From NCBI GenBank assembly GCA_003249955.1, contig QKHS01000081.1:44103-108102 (forward strand): 64,000 nt of DNA, written 5' to 3'. Each line of letters starts with the position of its first letter. Within the stretch, counting starts at the first letter, position 1. The notes below the pieces were generated by a model. The model made no database searches, was not told the origin of the DNA, and saw nothing but the letters and a program-made list of their open reading frames with translations. Below are positions 24,676 to 35,505 of this stretch, in pieces. This DNA is from Bacteroidales bacterium. GTDB lineage: Bacteria > Bacteroidota > Bacteroidia > Bacteroidales > ML635J-15. The translations under genes and the position numbers were made by a program.

Positions 24676-26187
24676 TTATTTTTCCGGAGCCGGCATTTCC
24701 TGACGATCAAAAAACATGACAGCGTTCAAATGATCAATTTCATGCTGAAAGATATGAGCAGTATATGCCTGATTTATTCTTTCCTGAACAAAAGTTCCGT
24801 CTGCAAGATAATATTCAACATCTACCCATGATGCCCGGTATGAGTTCCCCGCAATGCCGTTAGCACTTAAACAGGACTGTGATACTGAGAGACAACCGTC
24901 ACTTCTCAGGTTGTATATATCAGAATAAGCAACTATTCTGGGATTAAAATATAATTCCCACGGGCGGTTAATAATTGTTCCTTTATCCTGCCTCTGAATC
25001 CAGACAATATTTCTGTTTATTCCTACCTGAGGAGCCGCAATACCTACCCCTCCTTCGGCAATAACAGTAACTTTCATTCTGTCGGTTAATTGCTGAAGGT
25101 TTTCCTCTCCTATTATTACATTAGAAGAAAGGGTTCTGAGGATTACCGAATCGGGTTGTTCACAAATATCCATTACTTCCATAGCACTTGTAGATGCTCC
25201 TCCAAGAATCAGGTCAATTTCGTCCTGTGTTAACGGCAAAGCCCGGGTACAGGTATCCATATGCAAAGGGAAAGACTCCCCGCAATCATTGTACGCCCAG
25301 ACGAACAAATCATAGTGTGTGCCTGCGGCGACAGAGTTAAGAGTTAAATCAGTGTTTGTCCCAAGATCTGTAGATGTTTCATAGTCATTCCCGATATTAC
25401 ATTTATATCCAGTAGCTCCGGCAACAGGCATCCAGTTCCAGTTTACAGATGTTTCTGTGGTGGTAATTTCTCCGGCAACAGGAGCCTCTGGTTGGATATC
25501 TGTTAAATACGTAAAATCAAAATTGTAAGTTTGTGACACAACCGGGCTATCGGAAAACGAAGTGCTTTCAGGCAAATGACAAGCCGTAACATAACCTGTG
25601 AAATTAAGGACATCTCCCTGATTATAGACAAAGTTCACAGATTTTGCAGACTTCAAAGAAAATTCTGCTATTTTTCCCACATACACGATTGATACCTTTG
25701 ATTCAGAATCTGACTGATTTGTAAGTTTAAGACCCTGCTCCTGCCCGTTACAGTAGAAATTCACAAAATACTGAGAAACAGAACCTCCCTTAAAGCGAAA
25801 TGTGTGTAACCCCTGCCCGGTTTTAAAACTTTCCCTAACAAGAATTTTCCCCGTTGTATCAAATACTTTTACAGATATTTCTTCTCCGGGAACATACACT
25901 TCGATATTAGTTTCACCATAAAACGGATTAGGATAATTTTGCTTCACACACAACTGAGCGGATTTCGCAACCTCACTGCTTATTCCTGATATCATATTAA
26001 TAACCAATCCGGCCTGATAGTTATAAATCATAGTGTCGCAAGCCGATGTGGTATTTTCAATCAATACACTGTCCAGAACAAGCTGTGAACCATTTTGTGT
26101 AATTCCGAAGTCAATATCGATCTGTGTCTGCACATAGGCCGAAAGACTTAAAAACAGTGCTGATAATAAAACCGCTGATTTCTTCAT
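24676..26187 (-). CDS. Secreted multidomain protein ending in a peptide deformylase domain
   Basis: 503 residues from the ATG at 26187, chosen because it gives a clean signal peptide (MKKSAVLLSALFLS..., ending A-Y-V-Q); an in-frame upstream ATG would bury it. After it comes a region with Q-N-Y-P-N-P-F and I-S-V-K-V-F-D-T-T-G-K, which resembles a T9SS sorting domain but lies internally, then a fibronectin-III-like module (about 240-320). The last ~150 residues are a peptide deformylase with all three motifs: G-V-G-I-A-A-P-Q (380-387), D-G-C-L-S (430-434, usually EGCLS) and Q-H-E-I-D-H (481-486). Ordinary deformylases are ~170-residue cytoplasmic enzymes that act on nascent chains; this one should be outside the cytoplasm. 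Its substrate is unknown. Confidence 0.85.
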   Translation of the reverse strand: MKKSAVLLSALFLSLSAYVQTQIDIDFGITQNGSQLVLDSVLIENTTSACDTMIYNYQAGLVINMISGISSEVAKSAQLCVKQNYPNPFYGETNIEVYVPGEEISVKVFDTTGKILVRESFKTGQGLHTFRFKGGSVSQYFVNFYCNGQEQGLKLTNQSDSESKVSIVYVGKIAEFSLKSAKSVNFVYNQGDVLNFTGYVTACHLPESTSFSDSPVVSQTYNFDFTYLTDIQPEAPVAGEITTTETSVNWNWMPVAGATGYKCNIGNDYETSTDLGTNTDLTLNSVAAGTHYDLFVWAYNDCGESFPLHMDTCTRALPLTQDEIDLILGGASTSAMEVMDICEQPDSVILRTLSSNVIIGEENLQQLTDRMKVTVIAEGGVGIAAPQVGINRNIVWIQRQDKGTIINRPWELYFNPRIVAYSDIYNLRSDGCLSVSQSCLSANGIAGNSYRASWVDVEYYLADGTFVQERINQAYTAHIFQHEIDHLNAVMFFDRQEMPAPEK

Positions 26188-26378
26188 GTTCGTTAATTGT
26201 GTTTGGTTTGTAATTGCAAATTTATTAAAATCCGGATACTTAACGACAATATACCTCAAAAAAACAATGCAAAAAATAAACAGTGGTGTTTTAATTTTTA
26301 TAAATATAAAGTATCCCTATTCTATGTTTTTTTATATCTTTACAATTGTATTAGATTTTAATAAATGTTTTCAACAAT

Positions 26379-28590: not shown

Positions 28591-30450
28591 ATGACTGACA
28601 GTTTTATTTTCACGGGAACCGGCTTTGTTACAGGCAAATACGAAGTCAACAATGCAGATATTGAAAAATATACTTCGTCGGGATATCTCGAAGGCTTTAA
28701 CGAAGAGCGTATAGCATCTTCCGATGAGTTTAAAGAGTTTTTAAAATCCAACCCGGGAGAAACAGCATTTAACTACATGACTGAGCATATAATGGGCTTT
28801 AAAAAGCGTTTTCATGTGGTTCCGTTCCCTCCTGTCGCCCATAACTACAAAGAAGCTCCCGATTCTCTTGATTTATGTGTGGAAGCAATTGAAATTGCAT
28901 TAAAAAACTCAGGTCTTTCCGGAAATGATATTGATGCATGGTTCGTTGGAACTGCAACCCCTCACCAGTTTGCACCCGGAACCGGAGAATTTGCAAAAGC
29001 TTATTTTACCGACATTGACAATAAAACTCCTGTTTACTCGCTTACATCGGCATGTGTAGGATTTAATATTAATCTTGCCAATGCTATAAGCTATCTTAAG
29101 AATAATCCCGAAGCCCGACATATAGTAATTGCACATGCCGAAGTAATGTCAGCATTACTGCCCGAAGAGAAAGACTTTGTTCCTTTCTCTACTTTTGGAG
29201 ACTCAGGAGCTGCTGTAATTTTAAGCAGAGTTAAAACAAGTTCGCAACAAGGTGTTTTAGCTGTTTCAAATAACGAAGACACAAGAATGCTTGATTTTTT
29301 GGGGGCAGATAAAAAAGGAAACCTGTACATGAACCCAAGAATGGTTAAAATGCGGGCCGTACCCAATATTACAGAAACTGCCTTAAAGCTTATGCAAGAA
29401 TGCGGGTGGACAAATGAAGATTTATTGTACTTCATTCCGCATCAGACAGGAAATGCAATTGTAGGATCTGTGGCAAAACTGCTGGAAATAAACCGGGAAA
29501 AGGTATTTCAGGAAGTTCAGATAAATTACGGAAACCTTTCAGGAGCATCAGTTCCGGCATGTTTCTCTGTACTTGAAAAAAGCGACAGATTAACCCCGGG
29601 AGGTAAAATTATAACATCTGTCGCCGGTCTTGGCGGTGAATTCGGAGGATTTGCATATAAAGTCCCTGACGAAAAACCGGTTTACTGCACAAAACCGGAA
29701 CTGGAAGGTAAAACAATACTGATTACCGGAGCAACAGGAGGCCTGGGACGTGAAATAGCACGCTCTGCCGCTGCCAAAGGAGCCACACTTTTACTTCATT
29801 ACAATTCCAATCAAGAACTGGCTGACGAGCTTAAATTGCAGTTAGAATCAGAATTCGGAACAATTGTAAAACTTCTTAAAGCAAATTTATCCGATAATGA
29901 AGAGCTTTCTGAAATAAGCAATAAAATTAAATCAGAGTTTAAGCAAATAAATTACCTGATTAATACTCATGCAATCACAGGATCTTTGGGAAAAGCCAGT
30001 CAGATTTCAGATGAAGAGTTTAATCATGTTATAAAGTCAAACTACCTGTCTGTCAAGAATTTATGTAACGAACTAAAAGATAACATAAGTGAATGTATTT
30101 TAATTACCGGTTCTGTTGGTGAGGACGCTCAGTTTCCGGGATCAGCATCTTATGTCGCTTCGAAGAGAGCCTTACGTGGCTTTTCTGTAAGTCTGGCTTC
30201 TGAGGTTTACAAGAAAAATACACGTTGTGTTTATTATTTACCCGGCATCATAGACTCCGGCATGATGGGAAAGCTTGAAAAATCACAGGTTATGGCCTCA
30301 ATGAGTATGGTCCGTCAAAAAGAACTTATCCCGGTAAAAGAGATTGCTGAGAGAATGCTCAAATCTGTTTACAGGATTAAAATCCCTAAAGTAAGAATGA
30401 GCTATGAATCTAATTTAAAGGTAATTAAAGACGGGTACTTAAATTTTTAG
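28591..30450 (+). CDS. Fusion of ketoacyl synthase III and active ketoreductase (KASIII-KR)
   Basis: 619 residues in two modules. Residues 1-360 are a ketoacyl-ACP synthase III (FabH-like) with an intact Cys-His-Asn triad: Cys155 in T-S-A-C-V-G-F-N, His284 in P-H-Q-T-G-N and Asn315 in N-Y-G-N-L-S-G-A-S. Residues ~370-619 are a short-chain dehydrogenase with T-G-A-T-G-G-L-G (379-386), Ser508 and the Y-V-A-S-K dyad (Tyr521, Lys525), so an active NADPH-dependent ketoreductase. A single chain could therefore condense and reduce. No signal peptide. It is not a standard FabH (about 330 residues alone), and no acyl carrier gene is visible nearby. The next gene is a paralogue of the same layout, 8 bases downstream. 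Confidence 0.85.
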   Translation: MTDSFIFTGTGFVTGKYEVNNADIEKYTSSGYLEGFNEERIASSDEFKEFLKSNPGETAFNYMTEHIMGFKKRFHVVPFPPVAHNYKEAPDSLDLCVEAIEIALKNSGLSGNDIDAWFVGTATPHQFAPGTGEFAKAYFTDIDNKTPVYSLTSACVGFNINLANAISYLKNNPEARHIVIAHAEVMSALLPEEKDFVPFSTFGDSGAAVILSRVKTSSQQGVLAVSNNEDTRMLDFLGADKKGNLYMNPRMVKMRAVPNITETALKLMQECGWTNEDLLYFIPHQTGNAIVGSVAKLLEINREKVFQEVQINYGNLSGASVPACFSVLEKSDRLTPGGKIITSVAGLGGEFGGFAYKVPDEKPVYCTKPELEGKTILITGATGGLGREIARSAAAKGATLLLHYNSNQELADELKLQLESEFGTIVKLLKANLSDNEELSEISNKIKSEFKQINYLINTHAITGSLGKASQISDEEFNHVIKSNYLSVKNLCNELKDNISECILITGSVGEDAQFPGSASYVASKRALRGFSVSLASEVYKKNTRCVYYLPGIIDSGMMGKLEKSQVMASMSMVRQKELIPVKEIAERMLKSVYRIKIPKVRMSYESNLKVIKDGYLNF

Positions 30451-30458
30451 ACAAAATT

Positions 30459-32279
30459 ATGCAAAACGACAATTATATATTTTCAGGATTTGGTTTCTCG
30501 TACGGGAAATACAAAATTACTAATCAGGACATATCCGAAGCAATAGAAAAAGGTTTTCTTCAAGGCTTCAGCAAAGAAAAAATTCAGAATAACAATAAAT
30601 TCCGGGAATTTAAAGAAAATAATCCCGAAGCTTCTCCTTTCGATTATTTTGCAGGGCATGTAATGGGGTTTTACGAAAGGCATCACGTCACTCCTTTTCC
30701 ACCGACAACAAAAAAATTGTATTACGCGGAAACTTCTCTTGAATTATGCGTTGAAGCAGTAAAAAATGCCTTGGAAAATGCAGGAATTCAGGCCGGAGAT
30801 ATTGATGCATGGTATGTAAGCACAGTTTCTCCTCACGAACAGGCTCCGGGAATTGCAGCAACTGTAAAATCTTTCTTTGTTCCCTTCGCCTGTCACAGTC
30901 CGGCATTTACACTTGCCAGCGGATGTGCCGGATTCAACATAAATCTTGAGACTGCTCTGGGCTATTTCAAATCTAATCCGGAAGCAAAACATATTATAAT
31001 TGCACATACAGAAACGATGTCTTCTTTTCTGACTCAAAGAATAAAATTCGTTCCTTTTGTAACATTCGGAGATGCAGCAGCAGCAGTTGTTTTATCAAGA
31101 TATTATGATGATGAAAAGTACGGGTTGATTGATATTTTAAATCTTCACGACTTAAACATGCTGGATTATGTGGGCGTTGACCACAAAAGGAATCTTTATA
31201 TGGACGACAGAATAATAAAAGACAGAGCGACTGTAAATATTCCCGTAGCTTCCGAAAAATGCCTTGCTCTAAGCTCCTGGAATAAAGAAGATATAGACTG
31301 GCTGGTTCCGCATCAGACCGGAAACGTTATTTTATTGCCGGCAGCAGAATCTCTGGGCATACCCGAATCAAAGGTATTTCTTGAAGCTCAAAACAAGTTT
31401 GGAAATGTTTCCGGCTCAACCGTTCCTTTAAGTCTTGCATTAATGAATGAAAGCGGAAAATTAAAGGACAAAACACGGATATTAAGTGCTACTGCAGGTG
31501 TCGGAGGCAATTTCGGGGCATTTACTTACATTCACAAGACCATTCCGGAAAATAATTCAGAATATTATTTATATGCAAATGAGTTGAAAGGTAAAAATGC
31601 ACTTATTTTAGGAGCCTCGGGACATTTGGGATATGCTGTCGCCGAAGAAATGAAAAAAAGAGGTGCAAACCTTTGGCTTCAGGCTAACAACAATATAGAT
31701 AAACTTAAAAATTTCGATCAGAATCAGATATTAAAATGTGATTTTACAGATCATAGTTCCGTTGAAGAATTTATTGACAGGCTCAATAAATCCGGAATTA
31801 AATTTAATTACCTTATAAATCTTGCAGGAACAACAAATCCTGACAAATGTTTTGATGTAAACTTCAGTTCTCCGGTAAAAATAACAGGTTCACTACTGCC
31901 TTTAATAACAGAGACAATATTCAATCTCGGTACTGCAGCAGAAGATATAGAGCTTTACGGAGCAAACGAATGGATTTCATCAAACAGAGCTTTTCACGGT
32001 TATCTGGCATCTGCAAGCGGCGAATTTTTTAAATCCGGAATCAGAACTGTTTATCTAAGATCTGCTTTTTGCGATTCAGGCATTTCAGAAGAATTCGACG
32101 AAAAGTATTTATTTAAATTCATGTTATCTGTCGGACAGGCATCTCGTCTAAAAACCTCTGACATTAAAGACAATATTGTAAATTCTTTGTATCTTCCAAA
32201 AGTTTTAGGAGTCAGTTATTCATACGAAAATGCAATGCTTGCAGGACGTATGGGATACAAGCTCGAGGTAGATATATAA
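30459..32279 (+). CDS. KASIII-KR fusion paralogue with degenerate ketoreductase domain
   Basis: 606 residues with the same layout as the gene before it and clear similarity along the full length. The KASIII triad is intact: Cys156 (S-G-C-A-G-F-N), His285 (P-H-Q-T-G-N) and Asn316 (K-F-G-N-V-S-G-S). The Rossmann part retains G-A-S-G-H-L-G (385-391), but a gap-free match to the first protein puts Trp505 and Asn509 where Tyr521 and Lys525 sit, and Thr492 for Ser508. The ketoreductase is thus very likely inactive. This fits a heterocomplex with the active paralogue, or a condensing enzyme with a structural or cofactor-binding second domain. The tricorn-like gene starts 10 bases later. Confidence 0.85.
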   Translation: MQNDNYIFSGFGFSYGKYKITNQDISEAIEKGFLQGFSKEKIQNNNKFREFKENNPEASPFDYFAGHVMGFYERHHVTPFPPTTKKLYYAETSLELCVEAVKNALENAGIQAGDIDAWYVSTVSPHEQAPGIAATVKSFFVPFACHSPAFTLASGCAGFNINLETALGYFKSNPEAKHIIIAHTETMSSFLTQRIKFVPFVTFGDAAAAVVLSRYYDDEKYGLIDILNLHDLNMLDYVGVDHKRNLYMDDRIIKDRATVNIPVASEKCLALSSWNKEDIDWLVPHQTGNVILLPAAESLGIPESKVFLEAQNKFGNVSGSTVPLSLALMNESGKLKDKTRILSATAGVGGNFGAFTYIHKTIPENNSEYYLYANELKGKNALILGASGHLGYAVAEEMKKRGANLWLQANNNIDKLKNFDQNQILKCDFTDHSSVEEFIDRLNKSGIKFNYLINLAGTTNPDKCFDVNFSSPVKITGSLLPLITETIFNLGTAAEDIELYGANEWISSNRAFHGYLASASGEFFKSGIRTVYLRSAFCDSGISEEFDEKYLFKFMLSVGQASRLKTSDIKDNIVNSLYLPKVLGVSYSYENAMLAGRMGYKLEVDI

Positions 32280-32289
32280 AGAATTTTTT

Positions 32290-35200
32290 ATGAAAAAAGT
32301 ATTACTTTCTTTTTTCTTCATGATTATTGTTGCATCAGCATTTTCGATTGAAGAAACAAGACTTCTGCGTTTTCCGGCTGTTTATGGTGATACTGTAGTA
32401 TTTTGTTATGCCGGCGATTTATATATAGTATCTATAAACGGAGGTATTGCCACAAGAATAACATCCCACGAAGGTTACGAAATGTTTCCTCATTTTTCTC
32501 CCGATGGTAAAACAATTGCTTTTACTGCTCAATACGACGGCAACACAGAAGTTTACACAATGCCTGTTTCAGGCGGTCAGCCAACAAGAATCACATACAC
32601 TGCCACACTTTCACGCGACGATATTTCGGACAGAATGGGCCCGAATAATATTGTTATGGGATGGACTAATGACGGACAAAATGTAATTTACCGCTCCAGA
32701 TCAAAATCATTTAACGACTTCAAAGGCCATTTATTTCTGGCTCCTGTTGACGGAGGGCTAAGCAAACAAATGCCTTTGTCCACCGGAAGCTGGTGCTCCT
32801 ACTCTCCCGACGGCAAACAACTGGCATTCAACAGGGTATTCAGAGAATTCAGAACATGGAAATATTATAAAGGGGGAATGGCAGATGATATCTGGATTCA
32901 TGATTTTAAAAGCAAAGAAACTGTAAACATCACCAATAATCCTTCACAGGACATATTCCCGATGTGGTATCAGGATAAAATATATTTTCTGTCCGACCGT
33001 GATAAAATTATGAACCTTTTTGTTTATGACATTAATGAAAAAGAAACAAAAAGACTCACAAACTTTGTCCGGTATGATATTAAATTCCCTGTTCTGGGAA
33101 GCGATAAAATTGTTTTTGAAAACGGAGGCTATATTTATTATTATGATCTGGCTCAGTCCAAAGTTGTAAAGATGACCATACGCATACGGGAAGATTTATC
33201 CGCAAGCAGAACAGTTTATAAAGATGCCTCTAAAGATATTGAAAATGTTAATATCGCTCCTGACGGATCAAGACTGATATTGTCTGCCCGCGGAGAAATA
33301 TTTTCAGTCCCGGTAAAAGAAGGAATTACCAGAAACCTTACCAATTCATCCGGGGCTCATGACAGAAATCCGGTGTGGTCTCCAAACGGCAGATACATTG
33401 CTTATATATCCGATAAATCGGGCGAATATCAGATTTACATTCAGGCTCCAGATAAGCCTGACTCTGAAATTCAGCTTACCAATTTTACCGACGGCTACAT
33501 ATACAGCCTTCAATGGTCTCCTGACAGTAAAAATATTTTGTGGCATAATAAAAAACTTGAGTTGAATTTTATAAATATTGATACTAAAAAAATTCAGAAT
33601 GTCTGCACATCTGTAATATGGGAAATAAATAATTATTCATGGTCTCCTGATAACAACTGGATAGCATATTCAGATCAGGACAGCAACAGGGTATCCCAGA
33701 TTTACCTTTACGATTTAAAATCAGATAAAGCAACATGTGTCACTTCCTCCTGGTACGATTCTTACAATCCGGTTTTCAGTAATGACGGGAAATACCTGTT
33801 TTTTATTTCGAACCGGGACTTTAACCCTGTGTATTCAAATACAGAATGGAATATTGCTTACAAAGACATGAGCAGAGTTTATTTCCTCACTTTAACAAAG
33901 GAAACTCCAAATCCTTTTGCACCGGTTAACACAGAAGTCTTTTCACAGGATACTTCTAAAAAGAAGCCTCAGCAGTTATTCAGAATAGACATTAACAACA
34001 TAGAATCCAGGATTGGCGTACTGCCTATGGCTGCAGGTAATTATCACAGTCTGAATTACAACAACAACAGGTTATATTTTGTTGAAAGCCGTCAGGGAGA
34101 AAGTGCAAAACTGAGAATGTTTAATTTTACAGACCTTAGTGCCAAAGACATAGGAAACTATTATTCGTACCTGATAAGTTTTGATTTTAAAAAGATACTT
34201 GTCAGAGATGGGAACTCATGGTATGTTACTGATTTAACAGAAAACGGTATTACTTTAAGTCAACCTGTAAGCATGTCAAATCTTCAGGTAAATGTTGACC
34301 TTAAAGCAGAATGGGCTCAGATATTTGACGAAAGCTGGAGACAGATGCGTGATTTTTTCTATGATCCTATGATGCACAGAGTAGATTGGAAAAAGCAAAA
34401 GGATAAATATGCCGAATTATTGCCATATGTTAATGACAGAAATGACCTTAATTACCTTATCGGAGAAATGATAGGCGAGCTCAACACCGGTCATGCCTAT
34501 GTCGGCGGAGGAGACCGTAAAGAGCTTAAACGGATAAAAACAGGCCTTCTGGGAGCGGAACTCGAGCGTGACAAAAAATCAGGTTATTACAAAATAACTG
34601 ATATTTATGAAGGTGAAAACTGGAAAGAAAATCTTAAGTCCCCGCTTAAAGGAATAGGGCTAAATATAAATGCCGGCGATTATATTATATCCATAAACGG
34701 TATTGACGTAAGCAAAACCAATAATATTTACTCATTACTGGTTGATCAGGCAGACAAAATTATCGAAATAGGGATATCAACAAAACCGGATGATAAAGAT
34801 GTTCAGAAATACTATGTAAAACCAATTGCTGACGAATCAGATTTAATTTATTTTAACTGGGTGCAGTCTAATATACGCAAGGTAAGCGAAGCTACAAACG
34901 GCCAGGTAGGCTACATACACATTCCAGACATGTCTGTTGTGGGACTTAACGAATTTGTAAAATATTATTATCCTCAATTATCTAAAAAAGCACTTATAAT
35001 TGACGACCGCGGAAACGGAGGCGGAAATGTAAGTCCTATGCTTATTGAAAGGTTAAGAAGAGAAATGTCTATGATGGCAATGTCGAGAGATGTACCGGAA
35101 CCAACAATGAAACCCGACGGAATGCTTCTGGGGCCAAAAGTTTTACTTATTGACCAGTATTCTGCTTCTGACGGAGACCTTTTCCCCTATCAATTCAGAA

Positions 35201-35505
35201 AACATAATCTTGGCCCTATTATCGGTGTAAGATCCTGGGGCGGTGTGGTAGGAATACGCGGCAGCCTTCCGTTTATTGACGGGGCAACACTGCATAAACC
35301 CGAATTTGCACACTATGACGAATCAGGATGGATCATAGAAGGCGTTGGCGTTGAACCTGATGTAGTTGTTAATAACGATCCTTATCAGGAGTTTATGGGA
35401 AAAGATTATCAACTTGACAAAGCTATAGAAGTTATAATAAATGAGCTTATAAAGTTTGAAAAAACAAAACCTGCCATCCCCGATTTTCCCGACAAGAGTC
35501 AATAA
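32290..35505 (+). CDS. Secreted tricorn-like S41 protease
   Basis: 1071 residues with a signal peptide (about 1-18). Two beta-propeller regions with WD40-like S-P-D-G-K repeats occupy about 20-640, followed by a tail-specific protease C1 domain, a PDZ-like domain (about 740-850) and an S41 core with I-D-D-R-G-N-G-G-G and the nucleophile segment Q-Y-S-A-S-D-G-D (Ser958/Ser960), then G-G-V-V-G-I-R-G. The signal peptide differs from archaeal tricorn, which is cytoplasmic; secreted versions are common in Bacteroidota. Although only 10 bases follow the KASIII-KR paralogue, this gene is a general periplasmic peptidase and may be a chance operon partner. Confidence 0.92.
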   Translation: MKKVLLSFFFMIIVASAFSIEETRLLRFPAVYGDTVVFCYAGDLYIVSINGGIATRITSHEGYEMFPHFSPDGKTIAFTAQYDGNTEVYTMPVSGGQPTRITYTATLSRDDISDRMGPNNIVMGWTNDGQNVIYRSRSKSFNDFKGHLFLAPVDGGLSKQMPLSTGSWCSYSPDGKQLAFNRVFREFRTWKYYKGGMADDIWIHDFKSKETVNITNNPSQDIFPMWYQDKIYFLSDRDKIMNLFVYDINEKETKRLTNFVRYDIKFPVLGSDKIVFENGGYIYYYDLAQSKVVKMTIRIREDLSASRTVYKDASKDIENVNIAPDGSRLILSARGEIFSVPVKEGITRNLTNSSGAHDRNPVWSPNGRYIAYISDKSGEYQIYIQAPDKPDSEIQLTNFTDGYIYSLQWSPDSKNILWHNKKLELNFINIDTKKIQNVCTSVIWEINNYSWSPDNNWIAYSDQDSNRVSQIYLYDLKSDKATCVTSSWYDSYNPVFSNDGKYLFFISNRDFNPVYSNTEWNIAYKDMSRVYFLTLTKETPNPFAPVNTEVFSQDTSKKKPQQLFRIDINNIESRIGVLPMAAGNYHSLNYNNNRLYFVESRQGESAKLRMFNFTDLSAKDIGNYYSYLISFDFKKILVRDGNSWYVTDLTENGITLSQPVSMSNLQVNVDLKAEWAQIFDESWRQMRDFFYDPMMHRVDWKKQKDKYAELLPYVNDRNDLNYLIGEMIGELNTGHAYVGGGDRKELKRIKTGLLGAELERDKKSGYYKITDIYEGENWKENLKSPLKGIGLNINAGDYIISINGIDVSKTNNIYSLLVDQADKIIEIGISTKPDDKDVQKYYVKPIADESDLIYFNWVQSNIRKVSEATNGQVGYIHIPDMSVVGLNEFVKYYYPQLSKKALIIDDRGNGGGNVSPMLIERLRREMSMMAMSRDVPEPTMKPDGMLLGPKVLLIDQYSASDGDLFPYQFRKHNLGPIIGVRSWGGVVGIRGSLPFIDGATLHKPEFAHYDESGWIIEGVGVEPDVVVNNDPYQEFMGKDYQLDKAIEVIINELIKFEKTKPAIPDFPDKSQ

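Follow-up and report, generated by a model that had tools for sequence, protein, structure and literature searches.

Several described enzyme systems resemble parts of the locus reported here. In short-chain dehydrogenase/reductases (SDRs) such as FabG, helices a4 and a5 form the dimer interface, and human mitochondrial HSD17B8/CBR4 is an SDR heterotetramer with an inactive partner. Engineered butanol routes based on NphT7 reportedly run in the order condensing, reducing and hydratase enzyme. PqsBC of Pseudomonas aeruginosa, a heterodimer resembling FabH (3-ketoacyl-acyl carrier protein synthase III, KASIII), is not known to have a ketoreductase (KR). According to PMC4807248, PqsB is without all three catalytic residues and PqsC is without the Asn. 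We analyzed a 64,000-nucleotide stretch of a Bacteroidales genome (GenBank assembly GCA_003249955.1, contig QKHS01000081.1, positions 44,103 to 108,102; the window), which encodes a crotonase followed by two KASIII-KR fusion proteins, copy 1 and copy 2. Like PqsBC, these are two divergent KASIII paralogues, and one protein is degenerate in a catalytic site. Unlike PqsBC, whose condensing sites are the degenerate ones (PMC4807248), both condensing sites are intact here and a fused reductase is degenerate.

We propose that the locus is a conserved cassette whose two fusions are predicted to assemble into a heteromeric condensing enzyme having only one working kind of KR, and in which the crotonase would dehydrate the product; we give this reading about even credence. 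The proposed arrangement joins an active and a non-reducing SDR as HSD17B8/CBR4 does, an analogy only, since that enzyme is not fused to a condensing enzyme. The NphT7 routes share the enzyme order of the cassette and differ in being engineered and made of separate proteins. The parts, KASIII, SDR and crotonase, are of known kinds. In the open-access literature (most subscription journals and bioRxiv were outside the scope) we found no description of paired KASIII-KR fusions in which both condensing sites are intact and one KR is conserved despite its degeneracy.

The condensing halves are intact in both copies. The KASIII triad was read directly as C155, H284 and N315 in copy 1 and as C156, H285 and N316 in copy 2, at the positions named by an earlier interpretation made from the letters alone (the sequence-only reading), and in a 309-row alignment of relatives the Cys-His-Asn residues were kept in all rows with filled columns, for both copies. 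Structure searches with predicted models (copy 1 by Foldseek against the PDB, both copies by VIA; the lists were filled by matches to the KASIII half) returned a thiolase-type fold matching FabH for each, with about 26% identity to the FabH structures 2ebd, 1hn9 and 6x7r in the alignments. The fusions differ from FabH in the fused KR, in an insert of ~30 residues near the N-terminus, in a C-terminal hairpin found in the predicted models of both copies, and in two Arg residues, one near the FGDG motif and one after the catalytic His-Gln, which were replaced in 12 of 12 aligned fusion rows. These two Arg belong to the substrate/CoA site of FabH, and their replacement argues mildly against CoA bound in the FabH manner. 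The position of the FabH Trp is Tyr or Phe in the fusions, and a third FabH Arg could be aligned only without certainty. The window genome also has a FabH-like protein of its own (L003), in which the Trp and Arg residues of FabH are present and whose gene adjoins a plsX-like gene. Mean column entropy of the KASIII half was 1.18 bits for copy 2 and 1.41 bits for copy 1, in sets that differ in make-up; by this measure copy 2 is no less conserved there than copy 1.

The reductase halves have diverged in their catalytic residues. Copy 1, whose KR aligns with 3-oxoacyl reductases, has an intact SDR triad, S508-Y521-K525, and copy 2 has T492-W505-N509. The change of Tyr521 and Lys525 to Trp505 and Asn509 had been noted in the sequence-only reading and was confirmed by direct reading, which found besides that the SDR Ser is also gone (Ser508 to Thr492). 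The glycine-rich cofactor motif that it had claimed for both fusions is indeed present, as ITGATGGLG in copy 1 and ILGASGHLG in copy 2. The KR of copy 1 is thus like FabG-type SDRs in keeping Ser-Tyr-Lys and the glycine motif; unlike them, these KRs are fused behind a KASIII and the window's copy 2 is without the triad. Among relatives, S-Y-K was found in 152 of 153 readable copy-1 rows (T-Y-K in the other) and in 19 of 154 readable copy-2 rows. The other copy-2 states were TWN (34), AFK (31), NWK (19), TFK (12) and rarer ones, in rows that include near relatives, so that the counts are not independent events; in Salinivirgaceae the copy-2 triad was HIA, HVA or HLF. The loss of Tyr and Lys in the second copy, on whose spread beyond the source genome the sequence-only reading had staked its case, is therefore clade-wide.

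The pseudo-KR of copy 2 is maintained, that is, under purifying selection. The ratio of nonsynonymous to synonymous substitution rates (dN/dS, NG86) for the copy-2 KR was 0.04-0.31 in 11 close KR-lost pairs, which overlap in loci and are not independent; some dS values were near saturation, and L093/L094 yielded no value. Among the 10 pairs with all four values, the copy-2 KR ratio exceeded that of the copy-2 KASIII half (0.02-0.09) in all 10 and that of the copy-1 KR in 6, and was always far below 1. Median identity between KR-lost genomes was 0.43 for the copy-2 KR and 0.48 for the copy-1 KR, and 0.59 (copy 2) and 0.58 (copy 1) for the KASIII half. AlphaFold2 single-chain models reached a mean predicted local distance difference test score of 92.7 for copy 1 and 92.1 for copy 2, and the pseudo-KR is confidently predicted to keep an intact fold.

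We then compared column entropies in sets thinned at 80% identity, comprising 91 copy-1 proteins, 80 (first pass) or 78 (final) KR-lost copy-2 proteins, and 12 copy-2 proteins with intact S-Y-K. The set of 78 excludes rows in which the Ser column holds His (Salinivirgaceae, HYV/HYI), and the set of 80 excludes Salinivirgaceae only. Ten columns were conserved (<0.3 bits) in the 78 KR-lost copy-2 proteins yet variable (>1.5 bits) in the 91 copy-1 proteins. Copy-2-specific conserved positions in the KASIII half are A28, Y89, V201, D241 and D255, and all five KR columns among the ten fall in helix a5: H513, G514, S518, G521 and E522. Sixteen columns were conserved only in copy 1, eight of them between residues 508 and 528 around the KR triad, and two of these eight are triad residues. 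The H, G, S and E of helix a5 recur without exception in the 12 copy-2 proteins that retain S-Y-K. Because these four are kept with the triad intact or lost, most of the constraint on the helix belongs to copy 2 as such and is independent of triad loss and of catalysis.

Because helix a5 takes part in the subunit interface of FabG-type SDRs, we suggest a docking role for it, and a heterocomplex of the two fusions would be consistent with a helix conserved specifically in copy 2. The KASIII half of copy 1 would dimerize with that of copy 2 in the manner of FabH, and the pseudo-KR of copy 2 would dock the copy-1 KR through helix a5 rather than reduce. Condensation of acyl and malonyl units may take place at either Cys site or at both, copy 2 supplying a second condensing site as well as the docking pseudo-KR; the copy-1 KR would carry out a single reduction of the 3-oxo group, and removal of water by the crotonase would give a 2-enoyl thioester. 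The carrier could be CoA or the cell's general acyl carrier protein (ACP). In its most extended form the proposal is a heteromer of KASIII-KR fusions, obligate and asymmetric, that has two active condensing sites, a single active KR, a pseudo-KR scaffold and its own crotonase (joined in some lineages by an altered aldehyde dehydrogenase, ALDH). It would make a 2-enoyl thioester by a route separate from fatty acid synthesis and stand in for thiolase in a mostly ruminal subclade; taken whole, that version strikes us as distinctly unlikely.

The pair is old. In a tree of 309 rows (P0074 and P0220, shorter than 560 aa, were left out), 31 upstream and 31 downstream copies fell on opposite sides of one branch with support 0.996, and a tree of the KASIII half from 89 of these rows gave the same split with an SH-aLRT of 100. 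Because upstream and downstream copies separate completely, each copy has held its position, and by these trees the two fusions are ancient paralogues. Parsimony on the KASIII-half tree placed two KR-triad changes, one in Salinivirgaceae and one in the main clade. An approximately unbiased (AU) test on the same 89 rows did not reject a single loss (p 0.424), so we dropped the claim of two independent losses; the KR triad of copy 2 was lost either once or twice. A 1096-aa open frame in one genome (G701) looked like a natural head-to-tail fusion of the copies; it spans a 100-N gap, was rejected as such, and the G701 pair was kept out of the trees.

Searches at E <= 1e-10 gave 206 relatives of copy 2 and 197 of copy 1 (120 of each listed). 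At E <= 1e-50, relatives were present in 30 of the 31 genomes of the window's family, the one without a match being 73% complete. An even sample of the order gave 15 of 393 genomes, from 6 of 206 genera and five families, and the samples of the class (1/296) and phylum (1/395) gave the window genome alone. The system is confined to a few Bacteroidales families. A named carrier is Salinivirga cyanobacteriivorans (P0223), a cultivated species; family f180 was taken as Salinivirgaceae because the KASIII half of its row L093_1 matches that of P0223 exactly. A contig scan found seven loci, two with rumen or reticulum in their record titles and four with RUG names, presumably rumen genomes. Both copies were clear, whole or partial, in 38 of the 40 genomes with matches, 37 by two or more matches and G699 by a contig-edge fragment that the tree placed in copy 1. 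Two matches lay on one contig in 33 genomes, or 34 counting the G699 fragment, and contig ends cut the copies apart in G684 and G687. The two copies thus mostly stay together across neighbourhoods, as the sequence-only reading had expected.

Table 1. Coordinates of the cassette and associated genes (window positions unless a locus is named).
Feature	Position	Strand	Remarks
Crotonase open reading frame, 254 aa	27823..28587	+	PF00378 2.4e-48, ECH_1; enoyl-CoA hydratase fold
Copy 1, KASIII-KR fusion, 619 aa	28591..30450	+	Pfam ACP_syn_III, ACP_syn_III_C, adh_short
Copy 1 KASIII half, aa 1-358	28591..29664	+	FabH-like fold
Copy 1 KR half, active-type, aa 370-594	29698..30372	+	PF00106 4e-32; triad SYK
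Copy 2, KASIII-KR fusion, 606 aa	30459..32279	+	Pfam ACP_syn_III, ACP_syn_III_C, adh_short
Copy 2 KASIII half, aa 1-359	30459..31535	+	
Copy 2 pseudo-KR half, aa 375-577	31581..32189	+	PF00106 3.3e-10; purifying selection (relatives, vs L066)
Pseudo-KR helix a5, aa 503-525	31965..32033	+	Copy-2-specific conserved H513, G514, S518, G521, E522
Tricorn-like S41 protease	32290..35505	+	10 bases 3' of copy 2; probably outside the system
ALDH-superfamily gene between copies	L086:10526-11743; L089:5654-6904; L084:5412-6641; L091:9521-10786		

The three genes form the tight run described earlier, with gaps of 3 bases between the crotonase and copy 1 and 8 bases between the copies recovered from the reading frames. 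Two Glu residues are catalytic in enoyl-CoA hydratase; the window crotonase, the only crotonase match at E <= 1e-15 in its genome, keeps both (E113, E133), as did 33 of 33 crotonase sequences. The sequence-only reading had looked for a crotonase that always accompanies the pair, and this did not hold: it lies 5' of copy 1 in only 23 of 41 locus sources, once with a gene between, and is not linked to the pair in three loci of family f157. In one mostly ruminal subclade it is an unlinked single copy in 8 of 9 genomes, 45-48% identical to that of the window. Near this unlinked crotonase, 7 of the 8 loci read (L107-L111, L113 and L114; not L112) have a gene that resembles lysine-2,3-aminomutase, with one gene of 337-353 aa between the two, and one more in L113; in L110 the aminomutase-like gene is broken into two frames.

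Five loci of three families, the window locus not among them, have an ALDH-superfamily gene between copy 1 and copy 2. This gene occurred in 4 of the 393 order genomes, each of which bears the pair and has the gene between its two copies, and in G698. In ALDHs the GQxC motif holds the catalytic Cys. Because all 4 aligned inter-copy proteins read GQAAVC at that site, they may be non-catalytic or altered. Flanking genes other than the crotonase and the ALDH-like gene vary between loci.

Several findings weigh against the heteromeric cassette. The S-Y-K triad is kept in copy 2 of families f149 and f157 and in some other copy-2 rows, so the system can do without the one-KR arrangement. The pseudo-KR is overall less conserved than the copy-1 KR. 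The entropy thresholds for helix a5 were chosen after a first look at the entropies; where copy 2 retains S-Y-K, the position of G521 is Trp in most rows, and in Salinivirgaceae all five residues were present in 2 of 3 copy-2 proteins, the third having Met at H513. Linkage of the copies is absent from G702, G380 and G403, G577 (92% complete) has copy 1 only, and the fragments in G687 could not be assigned to either copy. The crotonase is unlinked in some lineages, and G620 had no crotonase match at E <= 1e-15. No ACP, ligase or transporter gene was conserved among the cassette neighbours in the 41 locus sources.

The main rival is a pair of sequential homodimers, in which copy 1 would condense and reduce and copy 2 would only condense, giving a chain in which one position is reduced and another is not; the pseudo-KR would be a structural part of the copy-2 homodimer. 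We consider this rather unlikely but take it seriously. It would suit two KASIII sites that both carry the full Cys-His-Asn, unlike PqsB, which is without all three residues (PMC4807248), as well as the conserved KASIII positions that copy 2 has of its own. Helix a5 could serve a copy-2 homodimer equally, and such a homodimer would account for the conservation of the helix as well as a heteromer would; the genome with copy 1 only and the three with unlinked copies also fit separate enzymes. Against it stand the pairing in 38 of 40 genomes and the linkage in 34.

The most specific guess at a pathway is a thiolase-independent C4 route, which we regard as quite improbable. In it, malonyl and acetyl units would give acetoacetyl- and then 3-hydroxybutyryl-thioester, and the crotonase would yield crotonyl-CoA to feed a butyryl-CoA dehydrogenase, which would make the route nature's equivalent of the engineered NphT7 pathways. 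We found no full-length thiolase match in 4 of 4 searched genomes of the mostly ruminal subclade (G371, G472, G620, G678), which speaks for the route, as does a run of genes found in both subclade genomes read, each without such a match: acyl-CoA dehydrogenase, EtfB, EtfA, CoA-transferase subunit and MaoC-like, named by reading (L121:5995-10082, L125:2334-6420). G420, also without a full thiolase match, has a 568-aa acyl-CoA dehydrogenase adjoining EtfA/EtfB-like genes. The nearness of the subclade crotonase to the aminomutase-like gene would fit as well, and KamD was enriched in the order sample, present in 9 of 15 pair genomes vs 40 of 378 others. However, pair genomes cluster by family, and KamD was absent from both f157 genomes, the single f90 genome and 3 of 4 f180 genomes, on which ground lysine fermentation was rejected as the general context. 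The window genome, moreover, has a full thiolase, and its acyl-CoA dehydrogenase was found only as a 591-aa form, with no short-form match. The replacement of the two FabH substrate-site Arg in both copies also counts against the route, as does stereochemistry: a FabG-type KR yields the R-alcohol and crotonase uses the S-alcohol.

Redundant fatty-acid initiation by a second FabH/FabG with a merely decaying second KR, already disfavoured, is very improbable: the FabH-like folds, the many triad-loss states and the lower conservation of the pseudo-KR would fit it, but the same genome has L003, with the FabH Trp and Arg, beside a plsX-like gene, the pair has two of those Arg replaced, and the pseudo-KR is under purifying selection.

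Two other assignments were considered. BioZ, of a BioZ-like biotin route, was among the structural and sequence matches but ranked no higher than FabH, with no search aimed at bio genes. A beta-branching cassette with 3-hydroxy-3-methylglutaryl (HMG) synthase is expected to hold an HMG synthase-type site and a donor ACP; here the site is Cys-His-Asn, and there was no ACP match on the window's contig, the ACP matches of the window genome being on other contigs.

The locus offers a natural replicated experiment on an enzyme half becoming a structural part. In one fused paralogue the triad is seen in three conditions, unaltered (SYK), altered in part (F-K) and altered in full (W-N, H-I-A), while the partner retains it, and four helix positions outside the triad are nearly fixed throughout those copy-2 states. 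If the heteromeric reading is true, the principle of a live and a supporting subunit, as in PqsBC and in ketosynthase-chain length factor (KS-CLF) pairs, would apply to fused reductase sites as well as to condensing sites, and the locus would point to an acyl pathway that is not yet described and that 30 of the 31 genomes in one Bacteroidales family retain. Salinivirga cyanobacteriivorans as a carrier would make the system testable.

Elsewhere in the neighbourhood, the tricorn-like protease was rejected as a part of the system: 11 such proteins were found in 10 of the 41 locus sources, all of the window's family, and the flanks differ elsewhere. Two genes that look by reading like S41 peptidases follow the pair in L086. 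A 527-aa protein on the minus strand of the window (24676-26259) combines a C-terminal peptide deformylase domain with a match to a Por secretion tail at residues 109-174, an odd mix in which the latter scores below the cut-off. On another contig of the window genome (G000:C91, around 37851-59177), a short-chain dehydrogenase match (L004), a weak thiolase-family match and a second ACP-like match lie together, possibly as a separate polyketide-type cluster.

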